Positions 618 to 31,273 of a stretch of DNA of 44,050 nt are shown here, in pieces. A program made the translations under genes and the position numbers. Below the pieces are notes generated by a model. That model ran no database searches. It was not told where the DNA came from and was given only the letters and a program-made list of their open reading frames with translations. Each line of letters starts with the position of its first letter. Within the stretch, counting starts at the first letter, position 1. The DNA lies in IMG/VR virus record IMGVR_UViG_3300047322_000673, positions 1 through 44,050 of that record; one strand, 5' to 3'. This stretch comes from a virus.

Positions 618-1274
618 CTACGCTTTTGACCAGTCGTAGGCGCCGGCGTCCTCGGCCAAGTGCGCGGCCGTGCGCGGAACCGCCTTGCTGTGAGCTGACC
701 GCTTCCCGATGGTCGAGTCCACTTCGTCGGGGTGCTCGATGATCGAGGGAACGCAGGCGTAGACAGCCTGCCGAGTGACCATCTTCCACCGGCCCCCAAC
801 GGCGTCATCCGAGCGAGGTTCGCCCCTAACGCCCGGTAGTTGTGACCCTCCCTGTGTCCATTCGAGGAACTCTTCGGCCTTCGCTCGCGGCCAGAGGACG
901 GCGACGACGGGAAGGAACGACCGAAGCGCCAGCCTGACGTAGCGGCGGTCGTCGGTGAGGGCGCGGCGGGCCTCCATCGAGGCGTCCCGAGGGAGCCGGC
1001 CGAGGAAGAGGCACACGGGGGCGTTCGGGTGGGCCTGCGCGATCTGCTTGACGGCCTTCGCGAAGTGCGGGGCGGGAACCGTATCGTCCTGCACGATTAG
1101 CAAGTGCGTCACAGCATGTGGAATGTCGGCGAGGCACTTCTGGTAGCCGCCCCACGGCGACGGCGGCACGGACTCGTGCGTGACGACCTCGATCTTCAGC
1201 GGTCGCAGGCCGCGCTTCAGCGCAGGGAGCAGCTCGGCCCGCGACGGGTGGTGCTGGATGCGAGCGAGGATCAA
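618..1274 (-). CDS. Glycosyltransferase-like protein next to the capsid gene
   Basis: About 218 residues. The TTG at 1274 overlaps the upstream stop as TTGA, the coupling seen throughout this operon. The middle has a hydrophobic strand ending in an acidic pair (LLIVQDD), the usual look of the metal/nucleotide-sugar site of GT-A fold glycosyltransferases, followed by a conserved-looking WP and a C-terminal HPDEVDSTIG segment. No membrane segment or signal peptide is visible, so it should act in the cytoplasm. It lies between the 28-residue membrane peptide and the capsid gene, away from the main glycan cassette, so the capsid is an attractive acceptor; that is inference from position. It could instead be a degenerate sugar transferase of unknown specificity. 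Confidence 0.6.
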   Translation of the reverse strand: MILARIQHHPSRAELLPALKRGLRPLKIEVVTHESVPPSPWGGYQKCLADIPHAVTHLLIVQDDTVPAPHFAKAVKQIAQAHPNAPVCLFLGRLPRDASMEARRALTDDRRYVRLALRSFLPVVAVLWPRAKAEEFLEWTQGGSQLPGVRGEPRSDDAVGGRWKMVTRQAVYACVPSIIEHPDEVDSTIGKRSAHSKAVPRTAAHLAEDAGAYDWSKA

Positions 1275-1357
1275 CCCCAAACGTGCGCCATGTAGACGCA
1301 TTGGGCGAGCAGGATCAGCGCGAGCAGAACCTCGGCCAGTCCGATCTTGAACGTCAT
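1271..1357 (-). CDS. 28-residue single-span membrane peptide
   Basis: ATG at 1357 overlaps the protease stop (TGATG), and its own TGA overlaps the next start (TTGA). The peptide is almost entirely one hydrophobic helix (about residues 6-24, rich in Leu/Ala/Val), with a Lys near the start and a Trp near the end. It could anchor or regulate a membrane-associated step. The function is unknown; the main support is perfect coupling to both neighbours. Confidence 0.5.
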   Translation of the reverse strand: MTFKIGLAEVLLALILLAQCVYMAHVWG

Positions 1358-2253
1358 CAGTCCCCCCCTCCGCAGCCGAGCGCCTTGCCGCGCTTGGCGA
1401 TGTGGGCCTCGACAGCAGCGCGCTTTCCCGGCGACGTGCGTCCGATGGCCTGCCGTGCGTTCGACCAGTCGGAGCAGTTGCGGATCGGGTAGCTGCCGTC
1501 CGACATCGCGGCGCCCGTGCCGGCGAGCCGCTGCCGTTCCTTCGCTGAGAACGTCGCCGCGACCATCGCGTCGTAGTCGCCCTCTTCCTCGATGCCGGCC
1601 GCGATCAGATCGCGCCGACGAATGAAGCTGCGGTCCGTGACCGGCGTTTCCATCTCTTCCCCTTCGTCCGAGAAGCCCTGAAGGATCAGGGCGTCGATTT
1701 CTCCCGAGTCGGCGGCGGCGACCATCGCCGGAATCCCGTAGCCGGGAACCGGGACGGCGAGCGCGCCGACGAGCTCGAGGTTGTGGTTCAGATTGCGCCA
1801 GTCGCCGGACGGCAAGTTGGCGCGGAGGTCGCGGAGCTGCTCCGGGCTGATGTCGCTTCTGACGGCCCCGGAAAGAAAGATGCCGTGCTTTCCGTCTCGC
1901 GCTCGGACGAAGGCGCCGACGGAGCCCGTCTTGTCGTAGTGCGTCGAGGCCGCTTGCAGCGTCGCGCGGAGGTCGGCGTGACGCGCCTGCGAGCCGACGA
2001 CGACCTTGCCGACCGGGATCGCGGAGCCGTCCTCGAGCTCGAGCTGGCCGAGATGGAACATGCGGTAGGACGTGTTCGAGCGCGGCGGCTTCACGCAGGA
2101 GCTATCCCTGCCGTTCACCATGCCGGCGTGACAGCCGTTCCAGGGGGCGAGATGGCCGTGGATGCGTCCGTCGGCCTCGACGGTCAGCGGCTCGGCGAAG
2201 TCCGGCTCGGGCTGGTCGAACCAGTCGGCCGGCGGCTTGAGCGGAGCGGTCAC
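1357..2253 (-). CDS. Capsid maturation (prohead) protease
   Basis: 298 residues; GTG at 2253 overlaps the portal stop as GTGA. Near residues 25-45 is the pattern GRIHGHLAPWNGCHAG, typical of actinophage prohead proteases, followed by a histidine in an STHYDKTG context near residue 105 and a hydrophobic ILQGF strand near 200. The C-terminus (after about residue 215) is a separate basic, Cys-containing region. It should cleave the scaffold-like domain of the capsid protein and itself during head maturation. The order portal-protease-capsid is the classic head gene order. The catalytic residues are assigned by resemblance only. Confidence 0.8.
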   Translation of the reverse strand: MTAPLKPPADWFDQPEPDFAEPLTVEADGRIHGHLAPWNGCHAGMVNGRDSSCVKPPRSNTSYRMFHLGQLELEDGSAIPVGKVVVGSQARHADLRATLQAASTHYDKTGSVGAFVRARDGKHGIFLSGAVRSDISPEQLRDLRANLPSGDWRNLNHNLELVGALAVPVPGYGIPAMVAAADSGEIDALILQGFSDEGEEMETPVTDRSFIRRRDLIAAGIEEEGDYDAMVAATFSAKERQRLAGTGAAMSDGSYPIRNCSDWSNARQAIGRTSPGKRAAVEAHIAKRGKALGCGGGD

Positions 2254-4061
2254 AGTTGGGCCAGCTCTCCCATATCGAGGGCGTGCTCGACGTGGCTCGC
2301 GAAGCCGGGGGGAAGGTCGGGCGTGTTCGGGTCGAACAGCGTCCGGGCCGCATACGCCTCGAGCAGCTCGCAGAGGACGGTCGTGTTCGACGCCGGGACG
2401 CCCCACTCTTCGAGGGTCGCGCGGAAGTCGTCGGTGCCGCCGTGGACGAGCTGGATCGGGTCGCGCTTCGCCATCTTCTCAAGCTGATCCGCGATCCCCT
2501 GCATCCCGAGGACAGAGGCGACGATGGCGTTCGGGACGCCGTTGATCGAGTCCTGACACTCGGAGCAGCGATGCTCCTGCGTCGCGGTGCGGAGACGGGC
2601 GCCGGCCTTCGACCGACACTGACGCAGGGCCATGTGCGCGGCACCGTTGATCGACGCGATGCGCGCTTCCTGCCGGGAGACGACTCGCCCATTCGTGGGC
2701 GCTGGCGGCGTTCCCGGCTGAGCCTGATGCACTCCTGGCGGCGCGGTCGGGCCTGCCACCGGGGGCGCCTGCTTCTCGAGCCCTGCGACCACCGGGTCGC
2801 GTGTCTTGAGCCCGAACACGAAGTCTTTTTCCTCGGTCGAGGGGGCCATATCTTCGGGGATGCCCTTCAGCTTGCGGTAGCCCGTGAACGAGATGGCCGC
2901 GCGATCCATCGCCTCGTCAGCGACGGCCGTCTGATCCGGCGACACGACGACTTGCGAATCGTCGTAGCCGATGTAGATGTCCTCGTAATCCTCGTTCTCT
3001 TCCTTCAGCGCCGGCCGAAGGTAGGCGTCGTTCATATCCATCGCGAACTGGTCGGCGAGCGGCTTCCCGTGCGTCTGCCACATATCGAACTTCACTTGCT
3101 GGCCCGTCCAGTGGTTCGCGTCCGACAGTCCCTTCAGGGCTTCCGGCGGGAGGTCGAGGCCGAGGGCGAGGCGGTCGATGGCCTCGAGCCGTAGGTCCTT
3201 CTCCATGTAGTCGGTCGCCGTGTTGTGCAGCTCGATCCAGCGCACCCGGTCGATGTAGTCGTAGCCGCCCTCCATGTAGAGCGGCGTCTGCGCGGAGGCT
3301 GAGCCGGGGTCCTGAATCTGCGCCGTGATGTGCTCGACCAGCTTCTGCGTGAATACGTTGAGCTCGGGGTCCTCGTCGAGCCCGTCCTCCGGGGGAGCAG
3401 GGGCAATCTCTGACGGGACGACGATGATCCCCTTCAGCACGCGCGAGACGGCGGTCGAACGCACGGCGGCGGTGAGCAGGATGAGCTCTTCGGCGATGTC
3501 GAGGACGGCGCGCAAAGGCGAGTCGGCGCGGTCTGACCACATCGGGTGCGGCGTCCACATTCGGTAGCCGACGCCGACCTCGGTCGTCAGCCCGCCGAAC
3601 GAGTCGCGGCGCGTGCATTTTCCGGTCTGATCGTCGATCCTGACTTCGCCGCGCCAGAGGAACCGCCACCGCTCGCCCGAGTAGTCCTGGTCGTTCAGAT
3701 CGGTGCCGAGCAGAACACCCTCGCCGGTGACGAACATGAGTCGGCCGTAGTCGTACTGGATGCGCTTGCGCCCGCCGCCGGGGTCCTGAATCCGGTTGAG
3801 CAACTCCACGGCGGGGCCGTCCTTGATCTGCTCGAGTTTCCCTTCGGCGTTCAGCTTGGCCGGCCAAAAATCGACACGGCTCAGCATCCTGGCGTAGAAC
3901 TGGGAGCAGAAGCGAATCTCGCCCACGTTGTCGTAGAAGCCGAGCGCCCGGTACTGCCACAGCTCTTCCTGGCGCTTCTGGTACTGCGCGTTGTCAGGCG
4001 TCAGCTTCGCCGCTGAAGCGACGAGCGATGGGCGCGGTGCGCGCCGCCTTCTCAGTTGCAC
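2250..4061 (-). CDS. Portal protein
   Basis: 603 residues from a GTG at 4061. It forms the dodecameric ring at the head vertex through which DNA is packaged and ejected. Supporting features are its size, position between terminase and protease, a WQYRALGFYDNVGEIRF N-terminal segment typical of actinophage portals, and a central region with a GLDLPPEALKGLSDANHWT-like stretch that is common in portal cores. After a Pro-rich linker (about residues 425-455) comes a C-terminal extension with a CRSKAGARLR...CSEC cysteine cluster, which could be a small metal-binding or clip/barrel domain. The stop is coupled to the protease start. Confidence 0.88.
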   Translation of the reverse strand: MQLRRRRAPRPSLVASAAKLTPDNAQYQKRQEELWQYRALGFYDNVGEIRFCSQFYARMLSRVDFWPAKLNAEGKLEQIKDGPAVELLNRIQDPGGGRKRIQYDYGRLMFVTGEGVLLGTDLNDQDYSGERWRFLWRGEVRIDDQTGKCTRRDSFGGLTTEVGVGYRMWTPHPMWSDRADSPLRAVLDIAEELILLTAAVRSTAVSRVLKGIIVVPSEIAPAPPEDGLDEDPELNVFTQKLVEHITAQIQDPGSASAQTPLYMEGGYDYIDRVRWIELHNTATDYMEKDLRLEAIDRLALGLDLPPEALKGLSDANHWTGQQVKFDMWQTHGKPLADQFAMDMNDAYLRPALKEENEDYEDIYIGYDDSQVVVSPDQTAVADEAMDRAAISFTGYRKLKGIPEDMAPSTEEKDFVFGLKTRDPVVAGLEKQAPPVAGPTAPPGVHQAQPGTPPAPTNGRVVSRQEARIASINGAAHMALRQCRSKAGARLRTATQEHRCSECQDSINGVPNAIVASVLGMQGIADQLEKMAKRDPIQLVHGGTDDFRATLEEWGVPASNTTVLCELLEAYAARTLFDPNTPDLPPGFASHVEHALDMGELAQL

Positions 4062-4157: not shown

Positions 4158-4442
4158 CTAGTCGGTCAGACGCTCGACGAGCGGCAGAAGCGCCGTGACC
4201 GCGATGGCGCTCGCGGCGATGATCGCGCCGTGCGGCCAGAGCTGGAAGGCGCCCCACCACATGAGCGCGATCCAGAACCCGGAGCAGTACGGGCACTCCA
4301 CGAACTCCGTGATCTTCACGCCCTGCCGCTCCACGATGACCTTGCGTGGCCGGTTCGCGATGTCGTCGCGGGAGACGAGCACCCATGTTCGCCACGCGGC
4401 CAGGGAGAGCAGGACGACCTCGTACCAGCTAGGGATCGTCAT
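4158..4442 (-). CDS. DUF1360-like small membrane protein
   Basis: 94 residues. The ATG at 4442 overlaps the stop of the Lys-rich upstream frame (ATGA). Two or three hydrophobic segments are visible: an N-terminal one around YEVVLLSLAAWRTWVLV, then a central CPYCSGFWIALMWW motif and a C-terminal Ala/Ile/Val helix. The CxYCxGFW pattern is the hallmark I associate with DUF1360 membrane proteins, found in many actinophages and Firmicutes; their function is unknown. It sits between the glycan cassette and the portal. Confidence 0.65.
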   Translation of the reverse strand: MTIPSWYEVVLLSLAAWRTWVLVSRDDIANRPRKVIVERQGVKITEFVECPYCSGFWIALMWWGAFQLWPHGAIIAASAIAVTALLPLVERLTD

Positions 4443-4579
4443 TTCTTCTTCTTGGGCCGAGGCGGAGCGAACCCCACGGGACGTTTCTTCTTCTTGCGAC
4501 CGACGTTTTCGCTGACGGCAAAGGCCGATCCCGTGCCGAGTTTCGCGGCCCACTCTAGGTCAGGAAGATGCGTGGAAAT
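4439..4579 (-). CDS. Possible 46-residue Lys-rich peptide, start unclear
   Basis: An open frame ends with RPKKKK and a TGA that overlaps the next ATG as ATGA, the operon's usual coupling. It contains a second basic run (GRKKKKRP) and looks like translated sequence. Its frame is closed upstream by a stop shortly before 4579, and no ATG, GTG or TTG is available; the only near-cognate start is ATT at 4579. The start may be non-canonical, or the peptide may be made by frameshift from the upstream glycosyltransferase. Confidence 0.3.
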   Translation of the reverse strand: MSTHLPDLEWAAKLGTGSAFAVSENVGRKKKKRPVGFAPPRPKKKK

Positions 4580-5321
4580 ACGTCACCACTCCGTCCGTGA
4601 GGCTCAGGCCCGGAGGCCATTTCCGTTCGCTGATCTGGACCTTCTCGTCCGGCCACATGATCGAGTCCAAGTGCCGCCGGTTGTGGAACTTGCCGCCGTC
4701 GGCCTCGACGTACCGCTGGTAGCGCGTGGCGCGCTCGGCTTCGTTCGCCCACCCGAAGTGCAGAACCTCCGTGCCGGTCGGCCTCGGTCGGCGCATCCCT
4801 CGGATCGCCATTGGCTCGCGACCGCACGCGAGGGCGCGATCCTGAATCCGCCACAGAGAGGGGTCGGGGTCCTTCACCGTGTAGAGGATCGGGACGGGAT
4901 GCTCGCGCCAGCCGCCGTCCTGCCGGATGCCGAGATGCTTCCCGTCCATCGTCCAGACCTCTTGCATGATGAGTTGGCCGAGCGGGAGCGGCAGCTCGCA
5001 GAACTGGCGGATCATCTGGCCCTTCGCGACGAACTCGTCGGCGTCGATGGCGAGGACGTGCGTCGGCGTCTGCTCCATCGTGAAGTCCAAGAGCGCCTGA
5101 CGGCGGCGTCCCTCGTGGGCGGCGAAGAATCCGTCCTCCGCGTCGATGTGCTTCACGACCATCCGGTCGTCGGCGTTGTCGTCGAGCCACTCGCCGGTTC
5201 GGTCCGTGGAGCCGTCGTCGAGGACGGCCACGAGGTCGCAGAACTCGCGGAGGCTTCCGATGCACGCTTGGAGGTAGCGGCCGAGCTCGTTCTTCACGAT
5301 CAACGAGGCGACGAGGTTCAC
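4560..5321 (-). CDS. Family 2-type glycosyltransferase
   Basis: 253 residues from the GTG at 5321, which overlaps the upstream stop as GTGA; an upstream GTG at 5333 would add four residues. The GT2 signature is clear: an N-terminal strand LVASLIVKNE, then VLDDGSTDRT (nucleotide binding), then AIDADEF (DxD metal site), with a DFTMEQTP helix between. It should transfer a sugar from an activated nucleotide sugar in the cytoplasm. The C-terminal part contains LHFGW and ERATRYQRYVE, seen in GT2 enzymes related to lipopolysaccharide core glucosyltransferases. It is the last transferase of the cassette before the DUF1360 and portal genes. Confidence 0.85.
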   Translation of the reverse strand: MNLVASLIVKNELGRYLQACIGSLREFCDLVAVLDDGSTDRTGEWLDDNADDRMVVKHIDAEDGFFAAHEGRRRQALLDFTMEQTPTHVLAIDADEFVAKGQMIRQFCELPLPLGQLIMQEVWTMDGKHLGIRQDGGWREHPVPILYTVKDPDPSLWRIQDRALACGREPMAIRGMRRPRPTGTEVLHFGWANEAERATRYQRYVEADGGKFHNRRHLDSIMWPDEKVQISERKWPPGLSLTDGVVTYFHASS

Positions 5322-6013
5322 TTCGGCCACCACTCCCAGTAGTCAGCGCGCTCGTGGTACTTCCCCCACGGCCTCGCCCACTCCTTCTCGATGTACCGCT
5401 GCGCCAGCTCGTCCCACGGATCGAACGGCACGCGGTCGAGCGACACGACGGGGAGGTCAGGGTTGATCCACCCTCGGACGGGGTTGTATTCGTGCTGCCA
5501 TTCCGTGAACCCGTACCGGCCCGTGGCTTCGACCATGCGCGTCCGACGCCGGAACGCATCGACCTTCAACAGTCCGACGCCGCCCATGTGCGACCCCGGC
5601 TCGAAGCGGTAGATGCCGTCCCACTCGGGCGTGACCGGCAACCCTCGGCCAGCCTCCATGCCGAGCAGCTCGACGGTCGGGTCGCCCTCGATCACTTCGA
5701 GCATCGCCTCGAGCCAGCCGGGGGGGACCACGATGTCGTTGTCGATCTTCGCGAACCAGTCGGCCTCGGAGCGGGAGACGTAGAGGTTCATCACCGCCGG
5801 CGGGGAGTGGCGCTCGTTCTGCCAGAACTCGCACTCGACGGGCGCGTGGAGGGACATATGCGAGAGGAACTTCTCGGTGCCGTCCTGCGAGTTGTCGTCG
5901 TAGATGATGAGTTTCGAGACGCGATCCCAGTCGGTGTTCTGTAGGAGCATCTCGAAGCTGAACTCGGTGAACTCCAAGCGGTTCCAGGCGACGTAGAGAA
6001 TGTCTAGCGACAC
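5318..6013 (-). CDS. GT-A fold glycosyltransferase
   Basis: 231 residues; GTG at 6013 overlaps the upstream stop by 10 bases. Motifs in order: LDILYVAWNR at the N-terminus, LIIYDDNSQDGT (about residues 36-48, nucleotide site) and AKIDNDIVVPPGW (about 92-104, with DND as the DxD metal site), followed by a GGVGLLK segment. This is a GT2 family layout. No membrane segments are seen. It is coupled both ways, so the cassette is probably translated as a set. Donor and acceptor are unknown. Confidence 0.82.
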   Translation of the reverse strand: MSLDILYVAWNRLEFTEFSFEMLLQNTDWDRVSKLIIYDDNSQDGTEKFLSHMSLHAPVECEFWQNERHSPPAVMNLYVSRSEADWFAKIDNDIVVPPGWLEAMLEVIEGDPTVELLGMEAGRGLPVTPEWDGIYRFEPGSHMGGVGLLKVDAFRRRTRMVEATGRYGFTEWQHEYNPVRGWINPDLPVVSLDRVPFDPWDELAQRYIEKEWARPWGKYHERADYWEWWPK

Positions 6014-6606
6014 TTCGCCACCAGCTTTCGCATCTCGGCTCGCTCAGGAACATGCTCGGGCTGCTTCCACATTCGGTCGGGGGCTGACGCCCAGGGAAGA
6101 TCGCTGTGAGCCACATCGACAAGGATGCGCTTCGTGAGTGACGTGAACACGATGTCGCACGTTCGCATGAACTCGTCGCGGCGGATTGTGAATCCGTCGG
6201 TCCAGAAGTCGATCCACTCGCCGCCGTAGTCGAACACGGGCGATGTGAAGAACTTGCCGAACGCCCGATTGGGCAGATCGCGGTCGAAGATCGCGCCGAA
6301 GCCGACGAGACAGTGATCGGTGTAGAAGTCGTGGCGGAACCGCTCGGGCATGTTCGCCGTCAGCGCGCCCGGTCGGTAGGCGTTCAGGAGCGTGTCGAAG
6401 CCGGCGGGCTCAAGGACGCAATCGTCGTCCTGCACGTAGATCACGTCGGCGTCGGTGAGCTCGATGGCGGCGTAGCGTCCGTAGACGGCGAGGTCATCCT
6501 GCTTCGAGTTGTCCCACACGACGACTTCCCACTCGTCGGGGATGGAGTCGATGATCTTGGTCAGAGAGACGTTGCCGCGCGTGACGATGCAGGCTGCTAC
6601 ACGCAT
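6004..6606 (-). CDS. Glycosyltransferase-like protein
   Basis: 200 residues, ATG at 6606 overlapping the methyltransferase stop by 10 bases. The N-terminus MRVAACIVTRGNV followed by IIDSIPDEWEVVVWDNSK is the first strand-helix-strand of a GT-A fold, and VIYVQDDDCVLEP supplies the acidic DxD-like cluster at about residues 75-87. The middle carries a GFGAIFDRDLPNRAF stretch. It is short, so the acceptor domain is minimal. Likely a cytoplasmic sugar transferase of the same decorating pathway. Confidence 0.75.
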   Translation of the reverse strand: MRVAACIVTRGNVSLTKIIDSIPDEWEVVVWDNSKQDDLAVYGRYAAIELTDADVIYVQDDDCVLEPAGFDTLLNAYRPGALTANMPERFRHDFYTDHCLVGFGAIFDRDLPNRAFGKFFTSPVFDYGGEWIDFWTDGFTIRRDEFMRTCDIVFTSLTKRILVDVAHSDLPWASAPDRMWKQPEHVPERAEMRKLVAKCR

Positions 6607-7097
6607 GGCAGCGGCTTGTAGAAGATGAACCAGCGCGTGCCTAGCCCTTTTCCGTTACGGGCGCTCCGCGTGCCGACGATGGGCTCGGCCGGGAAATGGG
6701 GGTACACCCGGTCGAGAGCTCCGGCCCATTTGAATACGAGCGTGCCGCCGGGTGCGAGAACTCGCCAGCACTCTTGGAATCCGTTGCGGAGGTCGAACTG
6801 CTCGGTCGCAGGGTCGAGCGCGCCGTACTGCATGGCGGTGTCGCCGCTCGGATTGGGACGCGCGATGTGTGGTGGGTCGAACACGACGAGCTGGAACGCG
6901 CCATCGTCGAACGGCATATCGCGGAAGTCGCCGATGACATCTGGCTCGCACTTCCAGTTGGGGCGGTGGCTGTACGTGCCCGCTGCTGCTTCGCGCTTGT
7001 CCATGTAGAGCGCGAGAGGGTGCGCTTTGTCCCACCACCACATGCGCCCGCCGCAGCACGCATCGAGAATCTGTGCTGTCTCGACAGTTGTGCTCAC
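6597..7097 (-). CDS. Class I SAM-dependent methyltransferase (FDPPH type)
   Basis: 166 residues if the GTG at 7097 (GTGA overlap) is used; an ATG at 7103 adds two. Near the start is ILDACCGGRMWWWDK, the SAM-binding loop of a phage/prophage methyltransferase group, and then DFRDMPFDDGAFQLVVFDPPH, where FDPPH sits at the catalytic position. The C-terminal LAPGGTLVFKWAG and WFIFYKPL strands complete the Rossmann fold. Family members are often labelled DNA methylases without proof. Its place among sugar enzymes suggests that it may methylate a sugar, but DNA remains possible. Confidence 0.82.
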   Translation of the reverse strand: MSTTVETAQILDACCGGRMWWWDKAHPLALYMDKREAAAGTYSHRPNWKCEPDVIGDFRDMPFDDGAFQLVVFDPPHIARPNPSGDTAMQYGALDPATEQFDLRNGFQECWRVLAPGGTLVFKWAGALDRVYPHFPAEPIVGTRSARNGKGLGTRWFIFYKPLPCV

Positions 7098-7765
7098 ATG
7101 CATCCCCGCTCCGCGAGGATCACGGCCATCGCCTCGGGGTCGCCGTCGGCGCTGCGGTAGTGCGACGCGAGCGCGTTGTTGGCCGGGAGGTCGTCGCGGT
7201 CCTCGTTCGTCGGATGCGTCAAGTGGTAGGCGCCGCCCTTGATCCGGCTCTTCGGCCCGCCCATCGTGGAGGCCGCGACGAGGAACGCGATGTCCTCGGC
7301 ACCCCATCCGAGGAAGCGCGGGTCGAAGCCGCACACCTTCCAGAAGAGCTCGGTCGGGATCGCGAAGCAGTTGCCCCATATCAGGGCTACGTTCTCGATT
7401 TCGTGGGTGCGGTGCCAGTTGCGCCCCTCGCGGATCGCGTTTGTGCCCTGTTGGTTCATCACGCGCATGAAGCTGAAGCAGACGACGTAGGCGCCGTCGC
7501 GGAGCGCGTCCTCGGCGCCCTGGACGGCCTGCCTGTTGTTTTCGAGCAGGAAGTCACTGTCGCTGATGATGAGCACGTCGGCGCCGTCGTCGGTCGCCTC
7601 TCGAGCTGCGTTGTTGATCGCCTCGCCCCGGTTGAAGCGTTCGCCGTCGGCGTCGGCGAGATGGACGGGCCAGCCGAGCGCCTCCCACTGACGCACGGTG
7701 CAGGCGAGGTTCTCGACGCGCGCTGAGTCGGCCGGCCGGAACGGGATACAGACGTGAGGGTTCAT
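7094..7765 (-). CDS. Family 2-type glycosyltransferase with GWGxED motif
   Basis: 223 residues, ATG at 7765 overlapping the previous TAA by one base. Begins with the IPFRPAD strand; FNRGEAINNAAR lies near residues 45-60, VLIISDSDFLL (DSD metal site) near 65-75, and GWGAEDIAFL near 140-150. The last motif (GWGxED) is characteristic of galactosyl-/N-acetylgalactosaminyl-type C-terminal domains of GT2/GT7-like enzymes, where the Glu-Asp pair helps catalysis. The fold is well supported; the sugar is not. Cytoplasmic, no membrane segment. Confidence 0.82.
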   Translation of the reverse strand: MNPHVCIPFRPADSARVENLACTVRQWEALGWPVHLADADGERFNRGEAINNAAREATDDGADVLIISDSDFLLENNRQAVQGAEDALRDGAYVVCFSFMRVMNQQGTNAIREGRNWHRTHEIENVALIWGNCFAIPTELFWKVCGFDPRFLGWGAEDIAFLVAASTMGGPKSRIKGGAYHLTHPTNEDRDDLPANNALASHYRSADGDPEAMAVILAERGCM

Positions 7766-8241
7766 TAGCGCCTCCTGAATGATGCGACGGAGCCGTGAAC
7801 GGCGTGGGGGTCGCCGAACATTTCGGTCGCGGCTTTTTTGACATCGGAAAAGTCATAGTCGTGGAACGCGACGACGGGCGGATCGACCCATAGCGTGAGG
7901 ATGATGTCGCGCTGCACTTCGGCGTACTCGTGCTGGCCGTCGATGAACACGAGGTCGAACGCTTCGGCCAGGAGCGGCACGAAGTCTTGGAAGTTGGCGA
8001 CGACCATCGCGACGTTACGTAACGGCCGGATCGCTTCGAGGTAGTCGGCGAGGCTGTCGTCGTCGCCGACCGGGACGCCCTGATGCCGGTCCACCGAGAC
8101 GACGTACTTCGCCACTTCGGAGAGGACGGCGGTCGAGCGGCCCTTGTAGGCGCCGAGCTCAAGGACGGTCTTGCCGGCGCCGAGGCGTTGCAGCTCGGCG
8201 ATGTCGGCCCGTGAGAGCCAGCCCTCGGGGAGCTCAGTCAT
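7765..8241 (-). CDS. Class I SAM methyltransferase (MTase_24 type)
   Basis: 158 residues. The SAM loop VLELGAYKGRS (about residues 27-36), the acidic strand end VVSVDRHQG (about 48-55) and FIDGQHEYAEVQRDI (about 99-113) are the three hallmarks of the Methyltransf_24 group, which often methylates sugar hydroxyls or small molecules. HDY near residue 128 is another expected position. The start ATG overlaps the acetyltransferase stop by 8 bases. It probably caps a sugar in the glycan pathway. Confidence 0.83.
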   Translation of the reverse strand: MTELPEGWLSRADIAELQRLGAGKTVLELGAYKGRSTAVLSEVAKYVVSVDRHQGVPVGDDDSLADYLEAIRPLRNVAMVVANFQDFVPLLAEAFDLVFIDGQHEYAEVQRDIILTLWVDPPVVAFHDYDFSDVKKAATEMFGDPHAVHGSVASFRRR

Positions 8242-8893
8242 ACCACTTGTGCAGCCAAACGCTGCTCGACTCGATGCGGAACCCTGCCGCTGTGAACGCG
8301 CGCTGCGACGGAATGTTGCAGCCTTGCGTGACGACGCTGATCTTGGGGATGCCGAGATGGTAGGCGTGGTTCACGGCGGCGCGTGCGAGGTTCGCGCCGA
8401 TGCCGCGACCGCGTGCGTGCTCGGCCACCGCGATCAGAACGATGGACGCGACCTCCGTGCGGAGGTCGATGGTGACGAAGCCGGCGGGACCACCGCCGTC
8501 GCCGACCATGAGAATGTCCACCGCGTCGTCCACGACGTTCTCGCGGAACCAGCCCTCGTAGAAGTCGTCGCACCGCTCGTCGTCGAAGCGCGGGTCGGCG
8601 TAGAACCGCGACAGGCCACGGAACGCTGTGCGCGAGATGGCCGCGAGCTCGTCCACGTCGGCGGTGGTGATCGGCCGTGCGATTCCGACCTCGGGGCCGG
8701 TGTCGCGGGCGTACTCGACGCGGAAGTCCATGAACTGCGCGCCGTACTCTTCCTCGGCCTGAATCGCATCGTGGTCGGTTGCCGGGATCAGGAACCACGC
8801 GCAATCGACGGCAACATCGCCCACGACCGGCTCATGCTCGGCGCGACCGATCTTCACGCCCCAAAACGCGCTGTCCCACGGTTCGACCTTCAT
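8234..8893 (-). CDS. GNAT N-acetyltransferase, WecD-like
   Basis: 219 residues; ATG at 8893 overlaps the previous stop as ATGA. The first ~70 residues (MKVEPWDSAFWGVKIGRAE...) resemble the N-terminal domain of TDP-fucosamine acetyltransferase, where the phrase 'WDS.FFG..ig' is typical. The GNAT core follows with motif A ARGRGIGANLAR (about residues 160-171), which binds acetyl-CoA, and a C-terminal SQRAFTAAGFRIES motif B. It likely acylates the amino group of an amino sugar. It is one gene away from a PIG-L deacetylase that could free that amine. Confidence 0.82.
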   Translation of the reverse strand: MKVEPWDSAFWGVKIGRAEHEPVVGDVAVDCAWFLIPATDHDAIQAEEEYGAQFMDFRVEYARDTGPEVGIARPITTADVDELAAISRTAFRGLSRFYADPRFDDERCDDFYEGWFRENVVDDAVDILMVGDGGGPAGFVTIDLRTEVASIVLIAVAEHARGRGIGANLARAAVNHAYHLGIPKISVVTQGCNIPSQRAFTAAGFRIESSSVWLHKWYD

Positions 8894-9564
8894 CGGAGCT
8901 GCGGCGGGTAGACCTTCGTGCGGCGGAAGTGCGCGACCATGATTTCCCCTCTCCCTTCGAGTAGCCGGCCGTCCTTGTCGTAGTGGACGGTCGAGAAGTC
9001 GTTGAGGTCGCGGGTCTGCCACGACACGTACTCGCGCCTGAGCAGACCGACCTCGTGCGAGGCGTCCACGACCTCGCTATAGGCGGTTTCGACCCATCCT
9101 GTCGTCGCCGGGTTTTCGAGGTAGCCCCGCCAGTCCTGAACCAAGTGGAAGAGCTGGTTGATCTTCGGCGTGTTCCGGTAGAGCGACCACGGCCCGCTGA
9201 CGTAGGTGGCGTGGTTCGAGAAGATGTCGTATTTGCCGAGCACGTCGTCGGGGAGGAAGTACCCGACGCGGCCGTACACACAGTCGAGGTCGGTGTGGCC
9301 CCAGTAGTCGTAGCCGTCGAGCTCGTCGGCGTAGAGCTCTCCGAAGGCGCAGCGGTAGTCGCAGACCTTGTAGCCGTCGCCGCGCGGGTACTTGACGCCG
9401 AGTACGTCGTGGACGCGCTCGGCGAAGGTGTCCTCAATCGTCTCGAAGAGCAGCTCGTATCCGTCGTCTCGGAGCCGCTCGATGTTCGAGTACCAGAGCG
9501 GAAACCACTCGGGGAGGTCGCCGAAGTACGGGCAGATCAGCAGCTTACGAAGCGACGAACTCAC
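8890..9564 (-). CDS. DUF6625-like glycan-synthesis protein
   Basis: 224 residues from a GTG at 9564. The order of motifs CPYFGDLPEWFPLWYSN, then GDGYKVCDYRCAFG, then YDYWGHTDLDCVYG matches the DUF6625 family, which sits in capsule and O-antigen clusters and looks like a GT-A fold transferase with a DxD (DLD) site. The start overlaps the deacetylase stop by 20 bases and its own stop is coupled to the acetyltransferase. A sugar transferase or mutase-like role is likely. Recognition is from memory of the family pattern. Confidence 0.72.
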   Translation of the reverse strand: MSSSLRKLLICPYFGDLPEWFPLWYSNIERLRDDGYELLFETIEDTFAERVHDVLGVKYPRGDGYKVCDYRCAFGELYADELDGYDYWGHTDLDCVYGRVGYFLPDDVLGKYDIFSNHATYVSGPWSLYRNTPKINQLFHLVQDWRGYLENPATTGWVETAYSEVVDASHEVGLLRREYVSWQTRDLNDFSTVHYDKDGRLLEGRGEIMVAHFRRTKVYPPQLR

Positions 9565-10105
9565 GTTGGTCCTCCCCGAACCACGGTGCGGTCGGAGGGT
9601 GGTTGCGCTGCGACTCGTAGCAGCGGAGAGCCGCCGCCTTCTGCGCGCGCTCGGCCGGCGTCGGGATCACTTCGACGCCGGCCTCGGTGCGGCCGTGGCC
9701 GCGAGCGTAGGTGTAGTAGCGGATCATCTTGAGGTCGAAGTTTCCGACGACCCGCGTGCAGATCGAAGCGAGCGCGTTGTGGTCCTCGTGCCCGCCTGAT
9801 TCCCACGCGGGGAAGATCACCAAGTCGGGCTGGTTGAGCCGCACGTAGGCATCGACGCCCTCGGCGATGCCGTCCCAGTCGGGGGCGTCATCGGTGAAGT
9901 CCGTCCACTGCCAGTATCCGACGCCGGCGGTGTTCGTCGCGCAGAGCGTCTCGGCCTCGCGCGTGCGGGCCGTCGGGCCCCGCTGTGAGAACTCCTGACG
10001 CATGGAGCGGAGGACGACGACGACATCGGCCTGATTCCTGACCATCGTGTAGAACGCGAAGAGCGTCTCGTCGTCGTTGTGGGGGCTGAAGAGGACGGCG
10101 CTCAC
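9545..10105 (-). CDS. PIG-L/LmbE-type N-acetyl-sugar deacetylase
   Basis: 186 residues, GTG at 10105 overlapping the previous stop as GTGA. The zinc-binding motif SPHNDDE (residues 7-13; usual form xPHPDDE) and the second metal motif HEDH (residues 106-109) are both intact. These enzymes remove the acetyl group from GlcNAc or related amino sugars; in Actinobacteria, MshB (mycothiol) is a relative. In this cassette the substrate is probably an N-acetylhexosamine in a precursor or a growing glycan. Cytoplasmic. Its pairing with the nearby GNAT enzyme suggests exchange of the N-acyl group. Confidence 0.86.
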   Translation of the reverse strand: MSAVLFSPHNDDETLFAFYTMVRNQADVVVVLRSMRQEFSQRGPTARTREAETLCATNTAGVGYWQWTDFTDDAPDWDGIAEGVDAYVRLNQPDLVIFPAWESGGHEDHNALASICTRVVGNFDLKMIRYYTYARGHGRTEAGVEVIPTPAERAQKAAALRCYESQRNHPPTAPWFGEDQREFVAS

Positions 10106-10302
10106 TGGCGCGGCATCTTCTGAACGACTTGGATGCCGGTGATCGCGGCGAGCATCCCGTCGGCGGTCTCCTGCCCGAACGAGAGCCAGAGAACCTCCCG
10201 CGTGCGGTCGTCCGTTAGCGAGAGCCGGTAGACGGGGTGGCCGTTGTGCGGCTCGATCTGCTCAATGCCGATCCGAACGTCTCGTAGCTCGGTGATCTTC
10301 AT
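10102..10302 (-). CDS. Small protein of unknown function, 66 residues
   Basis: The ATG at 10302 has a strong ribosome site (GGAGGGAGAGAGC) and overlaps the glycosyltransferase stop as ATGA; its own stop overlaps the deacetylase GTG. The protein looks like a small mixed alpha/beta domain (MKITELRDVRIGIEQ at the start, a YRLSLTDD hairpin and a C-terminal helix). No catalytic motif is recognised. It could be an accessory subunit of the deacetylase or transferase. Confidence 0.6.
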   Translation of the reverse strand: MKITELRDVRIGIEQIEPHNGHPVYRLSLTDDRTREVLWLSFGQETADGMLAAITGIQVVQKMPRQ

Positions 10303-10988
10303 GCTCTCTCCCTCCAACGCCGGCGTCTCGCTTTGAAGAGCGCGGCGTCCCGGTGGAACTCTTTCTGACCCTTCTCGTATATCACATCTCTGACCCCTTT
10401 TGGCTTGCCGCGCTTGTCTCGCCAGAGATAGTGAAGGTGCTCGACGTGCGAGTCGAACGCGAACGCGAAGGCGTCACGCATCATGGCCGTCTCGATGAAC
10501 TCGGTGTCACAGAAGTTGTGGTGGTAGCCCTCGTGGAGCAAGTTGTGAGGCTCGTCGATGGTGCCGAGCTCTAGGTAGGAGCGGTGGACGAGCGAGTGCG
10601 TCGCGTGCTTGCCCGCGATCACGGTCGGGTTGCCGAGGTCGTTCGTGCCGATGACCGGCTTCCCGGTTTCGTGGAAGAGGTCGATGGCCGCTGTGTCCCA
10701 CCCCCGGTGAAAGAAAAGGTCGTCGCCGCCGATGAAGATGAAGTCCGGCGGCGTGTTCCCGATCCGTAGACGCGCGCCGGCGTTGATCTTGCGCGGGTAC
10801 TGGTGGTCGTCGCCGTGGACGATCCAGACGACGGACCCGGTGCCCTTGCACGCCTCGATCTGCTCGTCGTCGCCGGGGGTGACGAGGAACACGATGCGGT
10901 GATCTTCCTCGGTGTTGGCGTGGATCGACTCGACGAGCGGCTGCGCGTTCTTCGGCCGGCCGAGGACGGGGATCAGGAGCTCGATCAT
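10299..10988 (-). CDS. GT-A fold glycosyltransferase, first gene of the glycan cassette
   Basis: 229 residues, ATG at 10988 overlapping the large terminase stop as ATGA. It opens with MIELLIPVLGRPKN, the first strand and loop of a GT2-like enzyme; FIFIGGDDLFF near residues 88-98 is the acidic metal site, and a run of His/Asp residues follows in the acceptor half (HEGYHHNFCDTEF). Basic C-terminus (FKARRRRWRERA). It directly couples glycan enzymes to the packaging gene, so the cassette is expressed late with virion genes. Confidence 0.8.
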   Translation of the reverse strand: MIELLIPVLGRPKNAQPLVESIHANTEEDHRIVFLVTPGDDEQIEACKGTGSVVWIVHGDDHQYPRKINAGARLRIGNTPPDFIFIGGDDLFFHRGWDTAAIDLFHETGKPVIGTNDLGNPTVIAGKHATHSLVHRSYLELGTIDEPHNLLHEGYHHNFCDTEFIETAMMRDAFAFAFDSHVEHLHYLWRDKRGKPKGVRDVIYEKGQKEFHRDAALFKARRRRWRERA

Positions 10989-12562
10989 CGGCCTGCCGCC
11001 GCCGAGAAGATACGGCCCCGGCTGACGGGGCGCGAGCTGATCCAGTTCATCGCCTGCGACCACGCATCTATGTCGTCGTCGTACCGGGCGTTCGGGAAGC
11101 GGGCGCAGTTGTCTACGAAGTCCACGATTTCGGCGGCGTTCCGGGCATCGTCGGGCATGGAGAGCTCGTCGATGCCTTCGCGGAAACCGGGGAGGAACTG
11201 GTTGCCGGTCTCGAGGCCGGCGGCGGCGGATTCGGCCCTGAGCACCTTGTCGCCTTCGTGGGCGCGGCTGAGTTTCTTGCAGCCGCTCAGGATGCTCTTC
11301 AGCTCGTCGTAGAGCTCGACGCCGTAGCCGGCGCCCTCGATCAGCACGTGGTAGCCGGCGCTGCCGAAGCGTTTGCGGTCGCGCACGTAGCGGGCCTGCT
11401 CGATGATCGCGCGCTTCGCCTGCCCCTTATTCATATGGCCTTTCTTCAAGTCCAAGAGGTAACAGTCGGCGCCGGCGACGCCCCACGCTTGGATCGCTAC
11501 GAGGTCGTTCGATTCCTTGTCCTTGAGGGGCGTGTCGATGGACTGGACGATCATCGTGAACCGGGGCCGTCGGCTTTTCAGCTTTTCGTTCGTGAACAGC
11601 TCGGGGTGGTAGAAGCGCCACCAGTACCGCTTCAAGAGGTCGCCCTCGCGGGAGCTCGGCCGCTGCTGCATCTGGCCGGCGGCTCGGTAGCCGAGCGCCT
11701 TCGCCAGCTTGTCCGATTCCTTGTCGCCGCGACGGTCGGGCCACAGGAGCTCACCGTCCTCGGTGCGCGGGTCCCCGCCCCACACGAACGGGTGGTCGGG
11801 CTCGTAGCGCTCAGGGAGGCAGAGGATCGTCCAGTCGTCCGGTTCCTTCTCGAAGGCGTGCGCGGCCAAGTCGTTCTCGTGGAGGCGCTGCATGATGATG
11901 ACGATGGCCGTCGATTTCGGGTCGGCCTTCGACCCTTCCACCGTCGCGTCGTACCACTCGTTCGTGGAGTCGAGCATCACCCGCGATGTGGCGTCGGCGG
12001 CGAGCGCGTTGATCGGGTCGTCGATGATGATGCGGTGGCCGTGCTCGCCGAGGCCGGTCGAGCCGGGGGCGGTCGCCATGCGCGTTCCGCCCTTGTCGTT
12101 CGTGAGGTACTTCTCGGCGTCCTTGACGATGCGGAACTTGTGACCCCACCGGGCCTGATACCACTCGGAGAGCATGAGGTTCCGGCTCATGCCGGCGATC
12201 CGGCCGGCGAGCCCGAGCTCGTAGACGGCCGTCCAGTAGCGGAGCCACGGGTTCCTCGTCCACTCCCACGCCGGCCAGAACACGCTCACGTTCAGCGATT
12301 TCATCGTCCCGCGCGGCACCCATATCTGCAACCGCGTGATTTCGCCTCGTGAGACGGCTTCTAGGTGCTCGCAGATCGCGTCGATGTGCCAGTTGTCCTT
12401 GAACCGCTCGACGGGCTTCAGGACGCCCCAGGCGGCGCGTCCGAACGCTCTGAGGTCGCCGGCGAGCATCTCGGCGTCCTCGCGTGCGCGCCGGCGTTCG
12501 AGCTCGACCCGGATCAGCTCTTTGCGGTAGTCGTCGCCGTCTAGATTCGCTTGCGACGCCAA
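10985..12562 (-). CDS. terL: Terminase large subunit
   Basis: 525 residues; a TTG at 12562 is the likely start, overlapping the small upstream gene by 22 bases. The ATPase domain carries a Walker A-like PRGTMKS (about residues 83-89) and Walker B IIIDDP (about 178-183); the nuclease domain has the RNase H-type acidic residues in SIDTP (Asp343), LIEGAG (Glu409) and YDDDIDAW (about 494-501). It cuts and pumps DNA into the prohead through the portal. The Walker A is unusual, with Thr-Met where most terminases have Gly/His-x. The small terminase lies two genes upstream. Confidence 0.92.
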   Translation of the reverse strand: MASQANLDGDDYRKELIRVELERRRAREDAEMLAGDLRAFGRAAWGVLKPVERFKDNWHIDAICEHLEAVSRGEITRLQIWVPRGTMKSLNVSVFWPAWEWTRNPWLRYWTAVYELGLAGRIAGMSRNLMLSEWYQARWGHKFRIVKDAEKYLTNDKGGTRMATAPGSTGLGEHGHRIIIDDPINALAADATSRVMLDSTNEWYDATVEGSKADPKSTAIVIIMQRLHENDLAAHAFEKEPDDWTILCLPERYEPDHPFVWGGDPRTEDGELLWPDRRGDKESDKLAKALGYRAAGQMQQRPSSREGDLLKRYWWRFYHPELFTNEKLKSRRPRFTMIVQSIDTPLKDKESNDLVAIQAWGVAGADCYLLDLKKGHMNKGQAKRAIIEQARYVRDRKRFGSAGYHVLIEGAGYGVELYDELKSILSGCKKLSRAHEGDKVLRAESAAAGLETGNQFLPGFREGIDELSMPDDARNAAEIVDFVDNCARFPNARYDDDIDAWSQAMNWISSRPVSRGRIFSAAAGR

Positions 12563-13151: not shown

Positions 13152-13465
13152 GTGGAAATCGTACTTTCGGGATCGGCGCTCTCGTATGGGACCTCCCACG
13201 AGAACGGTGCCTTGTCGAGCGGGTGGGCGGCGCTCTGCCGGTCGGGGTCCTCATCGGACGAGAGAAGGGAGAGAGCCCGTAGCTCGTCCGAGTGCGCCCC
13301 CGACCGGCGCAGCGCCGCTGCCATTTCGAGCATAGCCTGTTCGAGCCGCGCCTGACCGCGTTCGAGCGCCTCGATACGTTCTTTCGCGTGCCGGTGCATC
13401 GTCAGGAGGCCGTTCAGTTGGAAGCCGAGCGAGGCGAGACGGTTTTTCAAGGCCCGGTCGAGCAT
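13148..13465 (-). CDS. 105-residue coiled-coil protein
   Basis: ATG at 13465 overlaps the nuclease stop (TGATG). Residues 1-65 form a basic helical region with heptad-like Leu/Ala spacing (NRLASLGFQLNGLLTMH..., then ALERGQARLEQAMLEMAAAL), probably a coiled coil; the rest is low-complexity and polar. No catalytic motif. It lies between a nuclease and the small terminase and could be a packaging accessory; this is inferred from position only. Confidence 0.55.
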   Translation of the reverse strand: MLDRALKNRLASLGFQLNGLLTMHRHAKERIEALERGQARLEQAMLEMAAALRRSGAHSDELRALSLLSSDEDPDRQSAAHPLDKAPFSWEVPYESADPESTIST

Positions 13466-13848
13466 CAGATCAGGCGCTTCGACTTGAGGATCGTCTCGAT
13501 GGTCGCCTGATCCTCGGGGAGCCATGCGTAAACGCCGACCCTGAGCTCGTTGTAGTAACCCCGTCCAGGCTCGAACACCATCGCCGGCGCTTCGGCCACT
13601 TCGCGGGCAAGGCGTAGGAACTCCTGCTGCTTGTCGGACAGCTTGCCGCCGCTGCCTTTCACTTCGGCGATGACCATGCGCGGCGGGTCGTCGTGGAGTA
13701 GGAAGAGGTCGGGGAGTCCCGCCGCACGGGGACTCCCGACGAACCCTCCCTTGCGATTTGCGACCATCGGCGCCGGGACGTGCCACACCTTCCATCCGGT
13801 CGCTTCGGCGCACGCGACGATCCAGTTGAGGAAGTCGCGCTCTTTCAC
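13465..13848 (-). CDS. VRR-NUC family nuclease
   Basis: 127 residues; GTG at 13848 overlaps the previous stop as GTGA. The PD-(D/E)XK-type site is visible: GSPRAAGLPDLFLLH (Asp of GxPD) followed by MVIAEVKGSGGKLSDKQQEFL (ExK plus the family's S-x-x-Q helix). VRR-NUC proteins resemble Holliday junction resolvases and cut branched DNA. In phages they often sit near the terminase and may clear branched replication products before packaging. A basic N-terminal helix precedes the core. Confidence 0.85.
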   Translation of the reverse strand: MKERDFLNWIVACAEATGWKVWHVPAPMVANRKGGFVGSPRAAGLPDLFLLHDDPPRMVIAEVKGSGGKLSDKQQEFLRLAREVAEAPAMVFEPGRGYYNELRVGVYAWLPEDQATIETILKSKRLI

Positions 13849-24639: not shown

Positions 24640-24848
24640 ACGAGCAGAAAAATCACGAGTACGAGGCACGTGTCTGGAAGGACGAGGACGGCCAGTGGAG
24701 CGCGAAGGTGCTCCGTAACGAGTGCTACTACGACTCGCGTTCGTGTTTCGCGTCGCGCGACAAGGCGCTCGCGTGGGCGCAAGAGACGGCCGACGCCGAC
24801 CGGCTTTCCGTGGCGCACGAGCGCAAGGCCGAGCGGGTGACACTATGA
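24636..24848 (+). CDS. 70-residue hypothetical protein
   Basis: ATG at 24636 (ATGA overlap) after CTGAAGGGAGAGAG. The product begins with a strand pair (YEARVWKDEDGQWSAKVLRN) followed by a Cys/Tyr-rich segment and a helix. Directly coupled to the ERF gene; could assist recombination, but no motif supports this. Confidence 0.5.
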   Translation: MNEQKNHEYEARVWKDEDGQWSAKVLRNECYYDSRSCFASRDKALAWAQETADADRLSVAHERKAERVTL

Positions 24849-25750
24849 GCGAGGCGGCGAGAGAGGCGCACCAGAAGATGACGGTCGTTCAGGCGCTCGC
24901 CGGCGTCATGGAGCGCGTCCAGTCCATCAGCAAGGACTCGAGGAACCAGCAGCAGAACTTCAACTTTCGAGGGATCGACGCCGTGATGAACGCGGTGGGT
25001 CCAGCTTTTCGTGAGTGCGGAGTGATCTGTATTCCTGTGCGCGCCGAGTGGCACGACGAGCGGTACGAGACAAAGAGCGGGACGCACATGCGAGGCGTCA
25101 CGGTAACGGTGACGTTCCGCTTCTACGGGCCGGACGGAAACTACATCGAGGCGCAGGCGTGCGGCGAGGCATCCGACGCCGGCGACAAGGCGATCCCGAA
25201 GGCCCATTCGGTCGCGTACCGGACGATGCTCTTGCAGGCGTTGTGCATCCCGACCGACGAGGCCGACCCGGACGCGGCGGTGCATGAGCGGGCCGCTCCG
25301 CGCCGGCAGGAAGGGCCACCGCCGGTGCCGGCGCCGAAGGGGTGGGGCGAGCTCGAGCAGCTCGTCAAGGGTTCCGACAATCCCGAAGAGGCGTGGCTGC
25401 TCTTCCAGGCGTTCGTGCGGGCTGCGTCCTACCATCTGTTCGGCAAGACGGATTCGGCCGAGCTCGACCAGGGCCAACGCGACGTGATCTGGCAAAAATC
25501 AGTCGGCGCCGGCCTTTGGCTCGCGTCGAACGTGACCCACGACGGGCCGTTCTTCTTCTACGACGAGGACGCGCAGCGCAAGGCGTGGGCGTTCGTGCTC
25601 GAGGGTGCGCCGGCGCTGGCGATCCCCGACTACGAGCCGCTCGAGCCCGAGCTCGACCCGGCCGCGCAGGAAGAGGCCGACCGTATCGCGGCGGAAGTGT
25701 TCGCCGAGGCCGGCGAGCCCGAGCCGCCGGCGAGCTCGAGCTCCGAGTAA
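24845..25750 (+). CDS. erf: ERF-family single-strand annealing protein
   Basis: 301 residues, ATG at 24845 (ATGA overlap). The ERF core is clear: MTVVQALAGVMERVQSISKD at the start, NFNFRGIDAVMNAVGPAF, then GEASDAGDKAIPKAHSVAYR (the family's signature Gly-Glu-Ala-x-D-x-GDKA) and LLQALCIPTDEADPD. ERF forms rings that anneal complementary single strands during recombination-dependent replication and circularisation. An acidic, Pro-rich C-terminus may bind SSB. It is the only clear recombination/replication protein in the genome, and a hairpin follows it. Confidence 0.92.
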   Translation: MSEAAREAHQKMTVVQALAGVMERVQSISKDSRNQQQNFNFRGIDAVMNAVGPAFRECGVICIPVRAEWHDERYETKSGTHMRGVTVTVTFRFYGPDGNYIEAQACGEASDAGDKAIPKAHSVAYRTMLLQALCIPTDEADPDAAVHERAAPRRQEGPPPVPAPKGWGELEQLVKGSDNPEEAWLLFQAFVRAASYHLFGKTDSAELDQGQRDVIWQKSVGAGLWLASNVTHDGPFFFYDEDAQRKAWAFVLEGAPALAIPDYEPLEPELDPAAQEEADRIAAEVFAEAGEPEPPASSSSE

Positions 25751-27640: not shown

Positions 27641-27927
27641 GCGAAACCGCTCAGGAACCACTCGCGTCAGTACCGGACCCGCCGCCGGCCGAACCGGAGC
27701 CGAAGGCCGCGAAGCAGGACACCGCCTACCTCGTGCTGTCGAAGGACGCCGACAAGGATTGGTGGATCGCCGCCGGCACGTACAACGCCGCCTCGTCGAA
27801 GGCCGCTGTGTCAGCGCACGTCAAGGCGAAGGGCTCGACGGTCGGCACGTTCGTCGCCGTGCCCGAGCGGTCATGGCACCCGCTCACGCTCAAGGTCGAG
27901 ACGCAGCCGAAGATCACGCTGACGTGA
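27637..27927 (+). CDS. 96-residue hypothetical protein
   Basis: GTG at 27637 (GTGA overlap). A disordered Pro/Glu/Ala N-terminus (about 30 residues) precedes a small domain (YLVLSKDADKDWWIAAGTYN, then a helix with KAAVSAHVKAKG, then VGTFVAVPERSWHPL). The same layout is common in actinophage hypothetical proteins. Function unknown. Confidence 0.55.
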   Translation: MSETAQEPLASVPDPPPAEPEPKAAKQDTAYLVLSKDADKDWWIAAGTYNAASSKAAVSAHVKAKGSTVGTFVAVPERSWHPLTLKVETQPKITLT

Positions 27928-28406
27928 CAGAAGCGCCGGCGTCTCTTGCGCTACTTGTCGAGCTCGAGAAGGCCGGCGCCATCTCGGAGGTCGGGCTGCA
28001 CCTATCGCGGCCCGACCTCACCTACGACGAGTTCGAGGCGATCTGCGTCCTGCTCGGCCGGATGCACGAAGCCGTCCGGTTCGCCATCGGCGACCTCATC
28101 ATCCTCGGCGAGCAGCTCTACAAAGAGCAGGCGTACCAAGCCCTCGAGCGTCTCAACCTCTCCGAGAAGGGGCGGCTCGAGTACGTGCGCGTCGCCGAGA
28201 AGGTCGCGCGTAGCGTGCGTCGGAAAGACCTCTCGTGGAGCCACCACAGGGCCGTGGCTGCCCTTCCACCGAAGGAACAGCGTCAGTGGCTACGCGAGGC
28301 CAGCCAGAAGGGTTTGAGCCACCACGAGCTACGAGAGGCGCTCAGGGATGGCGCTGCGCCCGAGCCCACGGTTTGCCGCTGCTGTCACAGACCCCTCGAT
28401 GGCTGA
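27924..28406 (+). CDS. ParB/KorB-like DNA-binding protein
   Basis: 160 residues, GTG at 27924 (GTGA overlap). The segment RRKDLSWSHHRAVAALPPKE followed by QRQWLREASQKGLSHHELREAL matches the helix-turn-helix region of plasmid/phage ParB-like proteins, with its helices running 'S.sH...va.l....q..wl..A...g.s..eLr..i'. There is no visible nuclease or CTPase domain. A terminal CRCCHRPLDG may bind zinc. Role probably regulatory or in replication control. Confidence 0.6.
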   Translation: MTEAPASLALLVELEKAGAISEVGLHLSRPDLTYDEFEAICVLLGRMHEAVRFAIGDLIILGEQLYKEQAYQALERLNLSEKGRLEYVRVAEKVARSVRRKDLSWSHHRAVAALPPKEQRQWLREASQKGLSHHELREALRDGAAPEPTVCRCCHRPLDG

Positions 28407-30767: not shown

Positions 30768-31273
30768 TACGCCGGCCCGATGCCGCTGACGTTCAGGAAC
30801 GTGACGGGAGGCCGGTGGAAGCGCCGCTCGACGGAGAGGCGAACCAGGATCGGGCCACCGTTGAAGCCGTGCGACCAGAGCAGCGGGTCGCTCGTCCCCT
30901 CGTCGGCGATGACGAAGCATCCGTGGTCGCCGGCGCCGGGGCCGAAGATCACGATGGCAGCTTTGCGCGCCCTCGTCGGGTCGGTGTAGTGCTTCAGGGC
31001 TTGGAGCATCGTGCCGGTCGTTCCCGGCCACCCGATGTTGCCCGACGGATTTTTCATCCCTGCCCACTTGTAAACGCACGCGATCCCCTGGGAACAGTCC
31101 ATCGTCAGATGCTTGCCTCCCGCGAGCCGCGCCTTCATCTGCGCGCCCGAGAGCGCCCACGTCGCGGCGTCGAGCGGGCCGCGAACGTCGTGGGTCGGGT
31201 AGTCCACCAGCGGCTCGTGTGAGACGAGCAGATGGCCGATGTCGCAAATCTTCTGCCTCTGCGCGATGTTCAT
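30767..31273 (-). CDS. Endolysin, NlpC/P60-type peptidase
   Basis: 168 residues from the ATG at 31273, after CTGAAGGGAGAGGAA. HLTMDCSQGIACVYKWAG places the catalytic Cys at about residue 60 in the D-C-S-x-G motif of NlpC/P60 enzymes; the His in GDHGCFVI (about residue 117) is the second catalytic residue. These cut peptide links in the cell wall. No signal peptide, as expected for a holin-dependent lysin; no clear wall-binding domain. Closely linked to tail and membrane genes. Confidence 0.82.
   Translation of the reverse strand: MNIAQRQKICDIGHLLVSHEPLVDYPTHDVRGPLDAATWALSGAQMKARLAGGKHLTMDCSQGIACVYKWAGMKNPSGNIGWPGTTGTMLQALKHYTDPTRARKAAIVIFGPGAGDHGCFVIADEGTSDPLLWSHGFNGGPILVRLSVERRFHRPPVTFLNVSGIGPA

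Follow-up and report, generated by a model that had tools for sequence, protein, structure and literature searches.

Putative virion glycosylation pathway with added deacetylase and acyltransferase genes in the genome of an uncultured phage

Antibody evasion is a reported effect of glycosylation in mycobacteriophages. The locus analysed here, a cassette of predicted sugar enzymes between the large terminase and portal genes of the virus record IMGVR_UViG_3300047322_000673 (IMG/VR; positions 1 to 44,050, 44,050 nucleotides, hereafter the window), was compared with the closest described gene sets. According to PMC12363180, in a passage citing Freeman et al. 2023, the transferases essential for glycosylating the capsid are gp110 in Che8 and gp38 in Corndog. 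The Che8 set consists of three genes (gp108–gp110) at the right genome end, of which gp108 has a methyltransferase domain; the window cassette likewise pairs transferases with a methyltransferase (Methyltransf_24, 8241–7765) but also contains PIG-L, GNAT and DUF6625 genes, which the Che8 set lacks, and the window homologues of the Che8 enzymes are divided between the terminase–portal cassette and the capsid neighbourhood. In Corndog and cluster O, an O-methyltransferase and three transferases (gp35–gp38) are encoded within the head operon, like the window genes, but between portal and protease; they are proposed capsid modifiers, and capsid peptides of the Corndog virion were unexpectedly few (PMC4351075). 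No deacetylase or acyltransferase is described for this four-gene set, and its likeness to the window is one of description only. Caudovirales GX15bay (MK557849, mangrove soil) carries seven transferase or methyltransferase genes directly upstream of its terminase, on the opposite side from the window cassette, among them a homologue of the window gene GTa (32% identical); no deacetylase or acyltransferase is annotated there. To our knowledge, no function has been reported for the GX15bay cluster.

Homology to Che8 enzymes and content of the cassette

Sequence comparison indicates that the window very probably encodes a glycan pathway acting on the phage's own virion proteins. Eleven co-oriented minus-strand genes run from 10988 to 4560, flanked by the large terminase and by DUF1360 and portal, and neighbouring cassette genes overlap by 1–20 bases at every junction (Table 1). 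This run had been described exactly in an earlier sequence-only reading, apart from the 71-aa open reading frame (ORF), which was overlooked, and terminase and portal had been named correctly; its further statement that the pathway is coupled to the packaging gene holds for position and translational overlap and for nothing beyond those. A virion target is favoured because two transferases, GTi and GTd, are homologous to Che8 gp110 and gp109, and because the genes, like those of Corndog, are part of the late head operon. GTi and gp110 share phrog_854, and GTd and gp109 share phrog_1721. Profile alignment with hhalign gave E=7.2e-10 over 181 columns for GTi–gp110 (best of 40 shuffles 0.028) and E=1.5e-11 over 187 columns for GTd–gp109 (best of 40 shuffles 0.044), while the other window transferases aligned with gp109 or gp110 at E 0.004 or worse. 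By blastp, GTd and gp109 were 30% identical (E=1.7e-14) and GTi and gp110 25% identical (E=5e-5). The pathway reaches beyond 4560–10988, the limits first given for it: GTi lies outside them, and a further GT2 gene at ~30770–29913 may well belong to the pathway too.

Table 1. Coordinates and assignments of cassette, flanking and associated genes in the window
Feature	Coordinates	Strand	Assignment and evidence
GTi transferase	618–1301	-	between head protease and capsid genes; phrog_854
Portal	2250–4061	-	phrog_776
DUF1360 membrane protein	4158–4553	-	Pfam 1.3e-5; fixed gene between cassette and portal; adjoins portal in relatives
GTa	4560–5333	-	GT2 glycosyltransferase; Pfam Glyco_tranf_2_4 2.8e-8
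GTb	5318–6013	-	GT2 glycosyltransferase; Pfam 9.3e-10
GTc	6004–6606	-	GT-A-like transferase; QDDD motif
phrog_954 protein	6597–7103	-	DNA-methyltransferase-like; phrog_954 1.2e-50; DPPH motif; Methyltransf_11 narrowly over Pfam cut-off
GTd	7094–7765	-	galactosyltransferase-like; Pfam Glyco_transf_7C; phrog_1721
Methyltransf_24 protein	7765–8241	-	S-adenosylmethionine (SAM) methyltransferase; Pfam 1.2e-13; candidate sugar O-methyltransferase; homologues L103, L117, L130, L136
WecD-like GNAT	8234–8893	-	Pfam 7.1e-13; candidate amino-sugar N-acyltransferase
DUF6625 protein	8890–9564	-	Pfam 3.7e-31; homologue alignment
PIG-L family de-N-acetylase	9545–10105	-	Pfam 1.5e-12; 48.5 bits vs cut-off 28.2
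71-aa ORF	10102–10317	-	homologues in L136, L089, L117; no function assigned
GTe	10299–10988	-	GT-A glycosyltransferase; AlphaFold and Foldseek; homologue alignment
Large terminase	10985–12562	-	phrog_38
GT2 transferase	~29913–30770 (start approximate)	-	far end of late genes; Pfam 3.9e-8; phrog_13126

Within the cassette, GTa, GTb, GTd, the DUF6625 protein, PIG-L, GNAT and Methyltransf_24 exceeded the Pfam cut-off, as did, narrowly, the phrog_954 protein. GTe had no Pfam match as a single sequence; its AlphaFold model (predicted local distance difference test score, pLDDT, 93.8) matched GT-A transferases in Foldseek, e.g. SpsA, WrtF and TarP, and on this model GTe is assigned as a GT-A-fold transferase. 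Structure prediction, which had been proposed for each enzyme, thus settled the GTe fold and failed for the DUF6625 protein, whose model (pLDDT 41.6) was discarded as unusable. The DUF6625 protein gave no match in a single-sequence search across viral contigs; a conserved DxD within GHTDxDCVYG suggests that it is probably a further glycosyltransferase. GTc was called a transferase because its QDDD motif is invariant in nine aligned homologues, its Pfam match as a single sequence being weak (E=0.036). In PIG-L, the metal-binding H, DDE and later H..H are invariant across 7 homologues. The GNAT protein aligned over its full length with WecD, a TDP-fucosamine acetyltransferase (NCBIfam PRK10975 1.9e-24; PDB 2fs5 8.4e-9), but scored 86.8 bits against an equivalog cut-off of 219 bits and is WecD-like rather than assigned as WecD; PIG-L, compared with BshB1/PIG-L deacetylases, also fell below its NCBIfam equivalog cut-off, so exact substrates are not assignable for either enzyme. 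Neither PIG-L nor GTb had a match among cultured phage records. No transmembrane helices were found in the cassette transferases, and the cassette enzymes look soluble.

The genome in this record is complete, with an exact 127-bp terminal repeat (1–127 and 43924–44050; circular/complete), and its joint is crossed by the major capsid gene; the N-terminal part of the capsid protein is acidic. No nucleotide-sugar synthesis gene was found among the window's scanned ORFs, and sugar donors are therefore presumed to come from the host. A search of phage records for DNA near-identical to the region gave no match. The window also encodes a VRR-NUC nuclease (13465–13848), an ERF recombinase (24722–25750) and a ParB-HTH protein (27759–28406); no integrase was seen among its assigned genes.

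The cassette site in related phages

Relatives were collected as 26 contigs from a portal search (some near-duplicates, labelled L with a number) and more from a GTi search. The arrangement that they share is terL – GTe – variable cassette – DUF1360 – portal – protease – GTi – capsid, with a cassette of ~2 to 9 kb. GTe was found in every related contig with the terminase end in view, and GTi in every portal-retrieved contig showing the protease-to-capsid stretch, with one variant, L101: in L101/L134 (3300048070_000176) the GTi homologue is not placed between protease and capsid but lies, inverted, upstream of DUF1360 and portal. Among the ORFs of the relatives' cassette intervals (n=143), 39 were GT2 and eight NAD-dependent epimerases, and FkbM, rhamnosyl O-methyltransferase, other methyltransferase, PIG-L and asparagine synthase families were also present; elsewhere in the window, GT2 was matched by 1 of 55 scanned ORFs. 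HNH genes occur at the site in relatives as well. Four contigs without the PIG-L module (L094, L097, L098, L111) have ORFs of ~490–520 aa before DUF1360; within the ORF set, three match Asn_synthase and three Peptidase_M23. In L005, likewise without the module, a GTa-like gene (961–1827) stands upstream of the terminase, outside the usual interval.

PIG-L, GTc, a close GTb and GTa were all present in seven of seven module-bearing complete GTe-to-DUF1360 intervals (the window, L087, L089, L092, L103, L109, L136); PIG-L, GTc and GTa were present in none of 11 other intervals, which carry transferases of other kinds and, for GTb, distant relatives only. On the portal tree, the module state changed at least three times, as forced by well-supported branches, and therefore these four genes appear to have been gained or lost as a unit. 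The order DUF6625, GNAT, Methyltransf_24 is common to the window, L136 and L103; the proposed search for the same gene order in related phages thus found the cassette order kept in L136 and L103. L136 (JAHFCU010000051.1), a contig of a metagenome-assembled genome (MAG), is the closest relative found, its terminase being 93% identical. The ratio of non-synonymous to synonymous substitution rates (dN/dS) was 0.18–0.44 for the cassette genes shared with L136; all genes shared with it are under purifying selection, and the cassette genes are for this reason not chance reading frames.

As to the host, the cultured phages with related portals are almost all actinobacteriophages, and the portal alignment yielded only one MAG contig (possibly misbinned). 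The L136 MAG is labelled Gemmatimonadetes, yet the cultured relatives infect Actinobacteria. Sunfish and TurkishDelight, the nearest cultured phages by portal, have a terL–portal interval without a transferase cassette; in TurkishDelight, one transferase adjoins the major tail gene.

Proposed pathway and candidate acceptors

In the course proposed here, the soluble, group-wide GT-A enzymes GTi (by the capsid gene) and GTe (by the terminase) would act in the host cytoplasm, where they would start a glycan on an abundant virion protein from nucleotide sugars of the host, and GTd, GTc, GTb, GTa and probably the DUF6625 protein would extend it. PIG-L would strip the N-acetyl group from an N-acetylglucosamine-type residue, the WecD-like GNAT would then acylate an amino sugar, and the Methyltransf_24 enzyme would cap a hydroxyl by O-methylation. 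With different cassettes at one site, virion glycans would differ from phage to phage, much as O-antigens do among bacteria. Substrates, reaction order and acceptor protein are inferred. More tentatively, the site may be an exchangeable, O-antigen-like locus for the particle surface, in which deacetylase and acyltransferase turn N-acetylated virion sugars into free amines or new N-acyl forms; no precedent was found for such tailoring of sugars by deacetylation and re-acylation in phage virions.

Several points weigh against this pathway. Glycosylation of any virion protein is predicted from sequence, and common descent accounts for part of the module co-occurrence. The window's collagen-like tail protein (32133–34121, minus strand) was rejected as obligatory acceptor, since L103 and L109, which both bear the module, gave no PF01391 match. 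The major tail protein has a Ser/Thr-rich C-terminus, which was conserved at 0.66, vs 0.70 for the whole protein, and is a candidate acceptor only; the end of the phiAsp2 major tail protein is partly similar, and no transferase is annotated in the phiAsp2 region viewed. The collagen-like protein of the window is tail-fibre-like, and in it a glycine-rich region comes after a short Gly-X-Thr repeat of collagen type; several related contigs also encode long collagen-like proteins. The major tail proteins of the group (41095–41751, minus strand, in the window) share a similar VTATS-like C-terminus.

Alternative targets and the phrog_954 gene

DNA and host-surface targets are both disfavoured, because neither a base-hydroxymethylating nor a lipid-carrier gene was detected and the enzymes look soluble. 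That the cassette instead alters a host surface glycan during infection, such as the cell-wall polysaccharide, for receptor masking or serotype conversion, is improbable. Sets of transferases, acyltransferases and deacetylases are typical of surface polysaccharide loci, and the GTe fold resembles, among others, the wall teichoic acid transferase TarP; yet the window contains no polyprenyl-phosphate initiating transferase (PF00953 absent), the cassette has no membrane-anchored transferase, the genes lie within the late virion operon, and two of the transferases have homologues among the virion enzymes of Che8. A GtrABC-type system is likewise not indicated by the helix and PF00953 results, the GtrA family not having been searched separately.

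The gene at 7103–6597 bears on the two remaining alternatives. Its protein matches the profile of phrog_954, a family named DNA methyltransferase, contains the amino-methyltransferase motif DPPH, and is 43–49% identical to proteins in Streptococcus, Pectobacterium, Lactobacillus and other phages; relatives sit in replication regions of unrelated phages (both contexts viewed). The L136 cassette, otherwise syntenic, is without the gene, and GTd there abuts GTc directly. On these comparisons, the enzyme probably has no role in the glycan pathway, and the most plausible reading is that its gene was inserted into the cassette separately; of the two SAM methyltransferases that had been counted as glycan enzymes, Methyltransf_24 stays a candidate. 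The phrog_954 gene and the HNH genes of relatives indicate that the site does take up unrelated genes, but it is highly unlikely that the cassette as a whole is a mixture of accessory genes without relation to each other, gathered at a permissive terminase–portal position, given the richness of the site in sugar enzymes across relatives, the module co-occurrence and the gene order kept in L136 and L103. Least credible is DNA hypermodification, in which the transferases would glycosylate modified bases with the 7103–6597 methyltransferase as part of the set: virus-encoded transferases that place diverse glycans on DNA are described (Pyle et al. 2024, as cited in PMC12619734) and the cassette does contain a DNA-methyltransferase-family gene, but its motif is that of amino-methyltransferases, it is missing from L136, and neither searches of the window nor the scan of 55 of its ORFs gave a match to PF00145 (C5-methylase), PF00303 (thymidylate synthase) or PF12851 (TET/JBP), the last absence being weaker as the positive control for the TET profile was also silent.

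Virion glycosylation is thus still the best reading of the set, as first proposed, and gains from the gp109/gp110 homology; the system would be of the Che8/Corndog type with added deacetylation and acylation chemistry. Virion glycosylation, described until now in a few cultured phages, would thereby reach an uncultured lineage tied by homology to the Che8 enzymes. Its genes behave as an exchangeable locus, to which PIG-L and GNAT would add deacetylation and re-acylation, not seen in such sets before, and expression of defined modules makes it testable how phage surface chemistry comes to vary.

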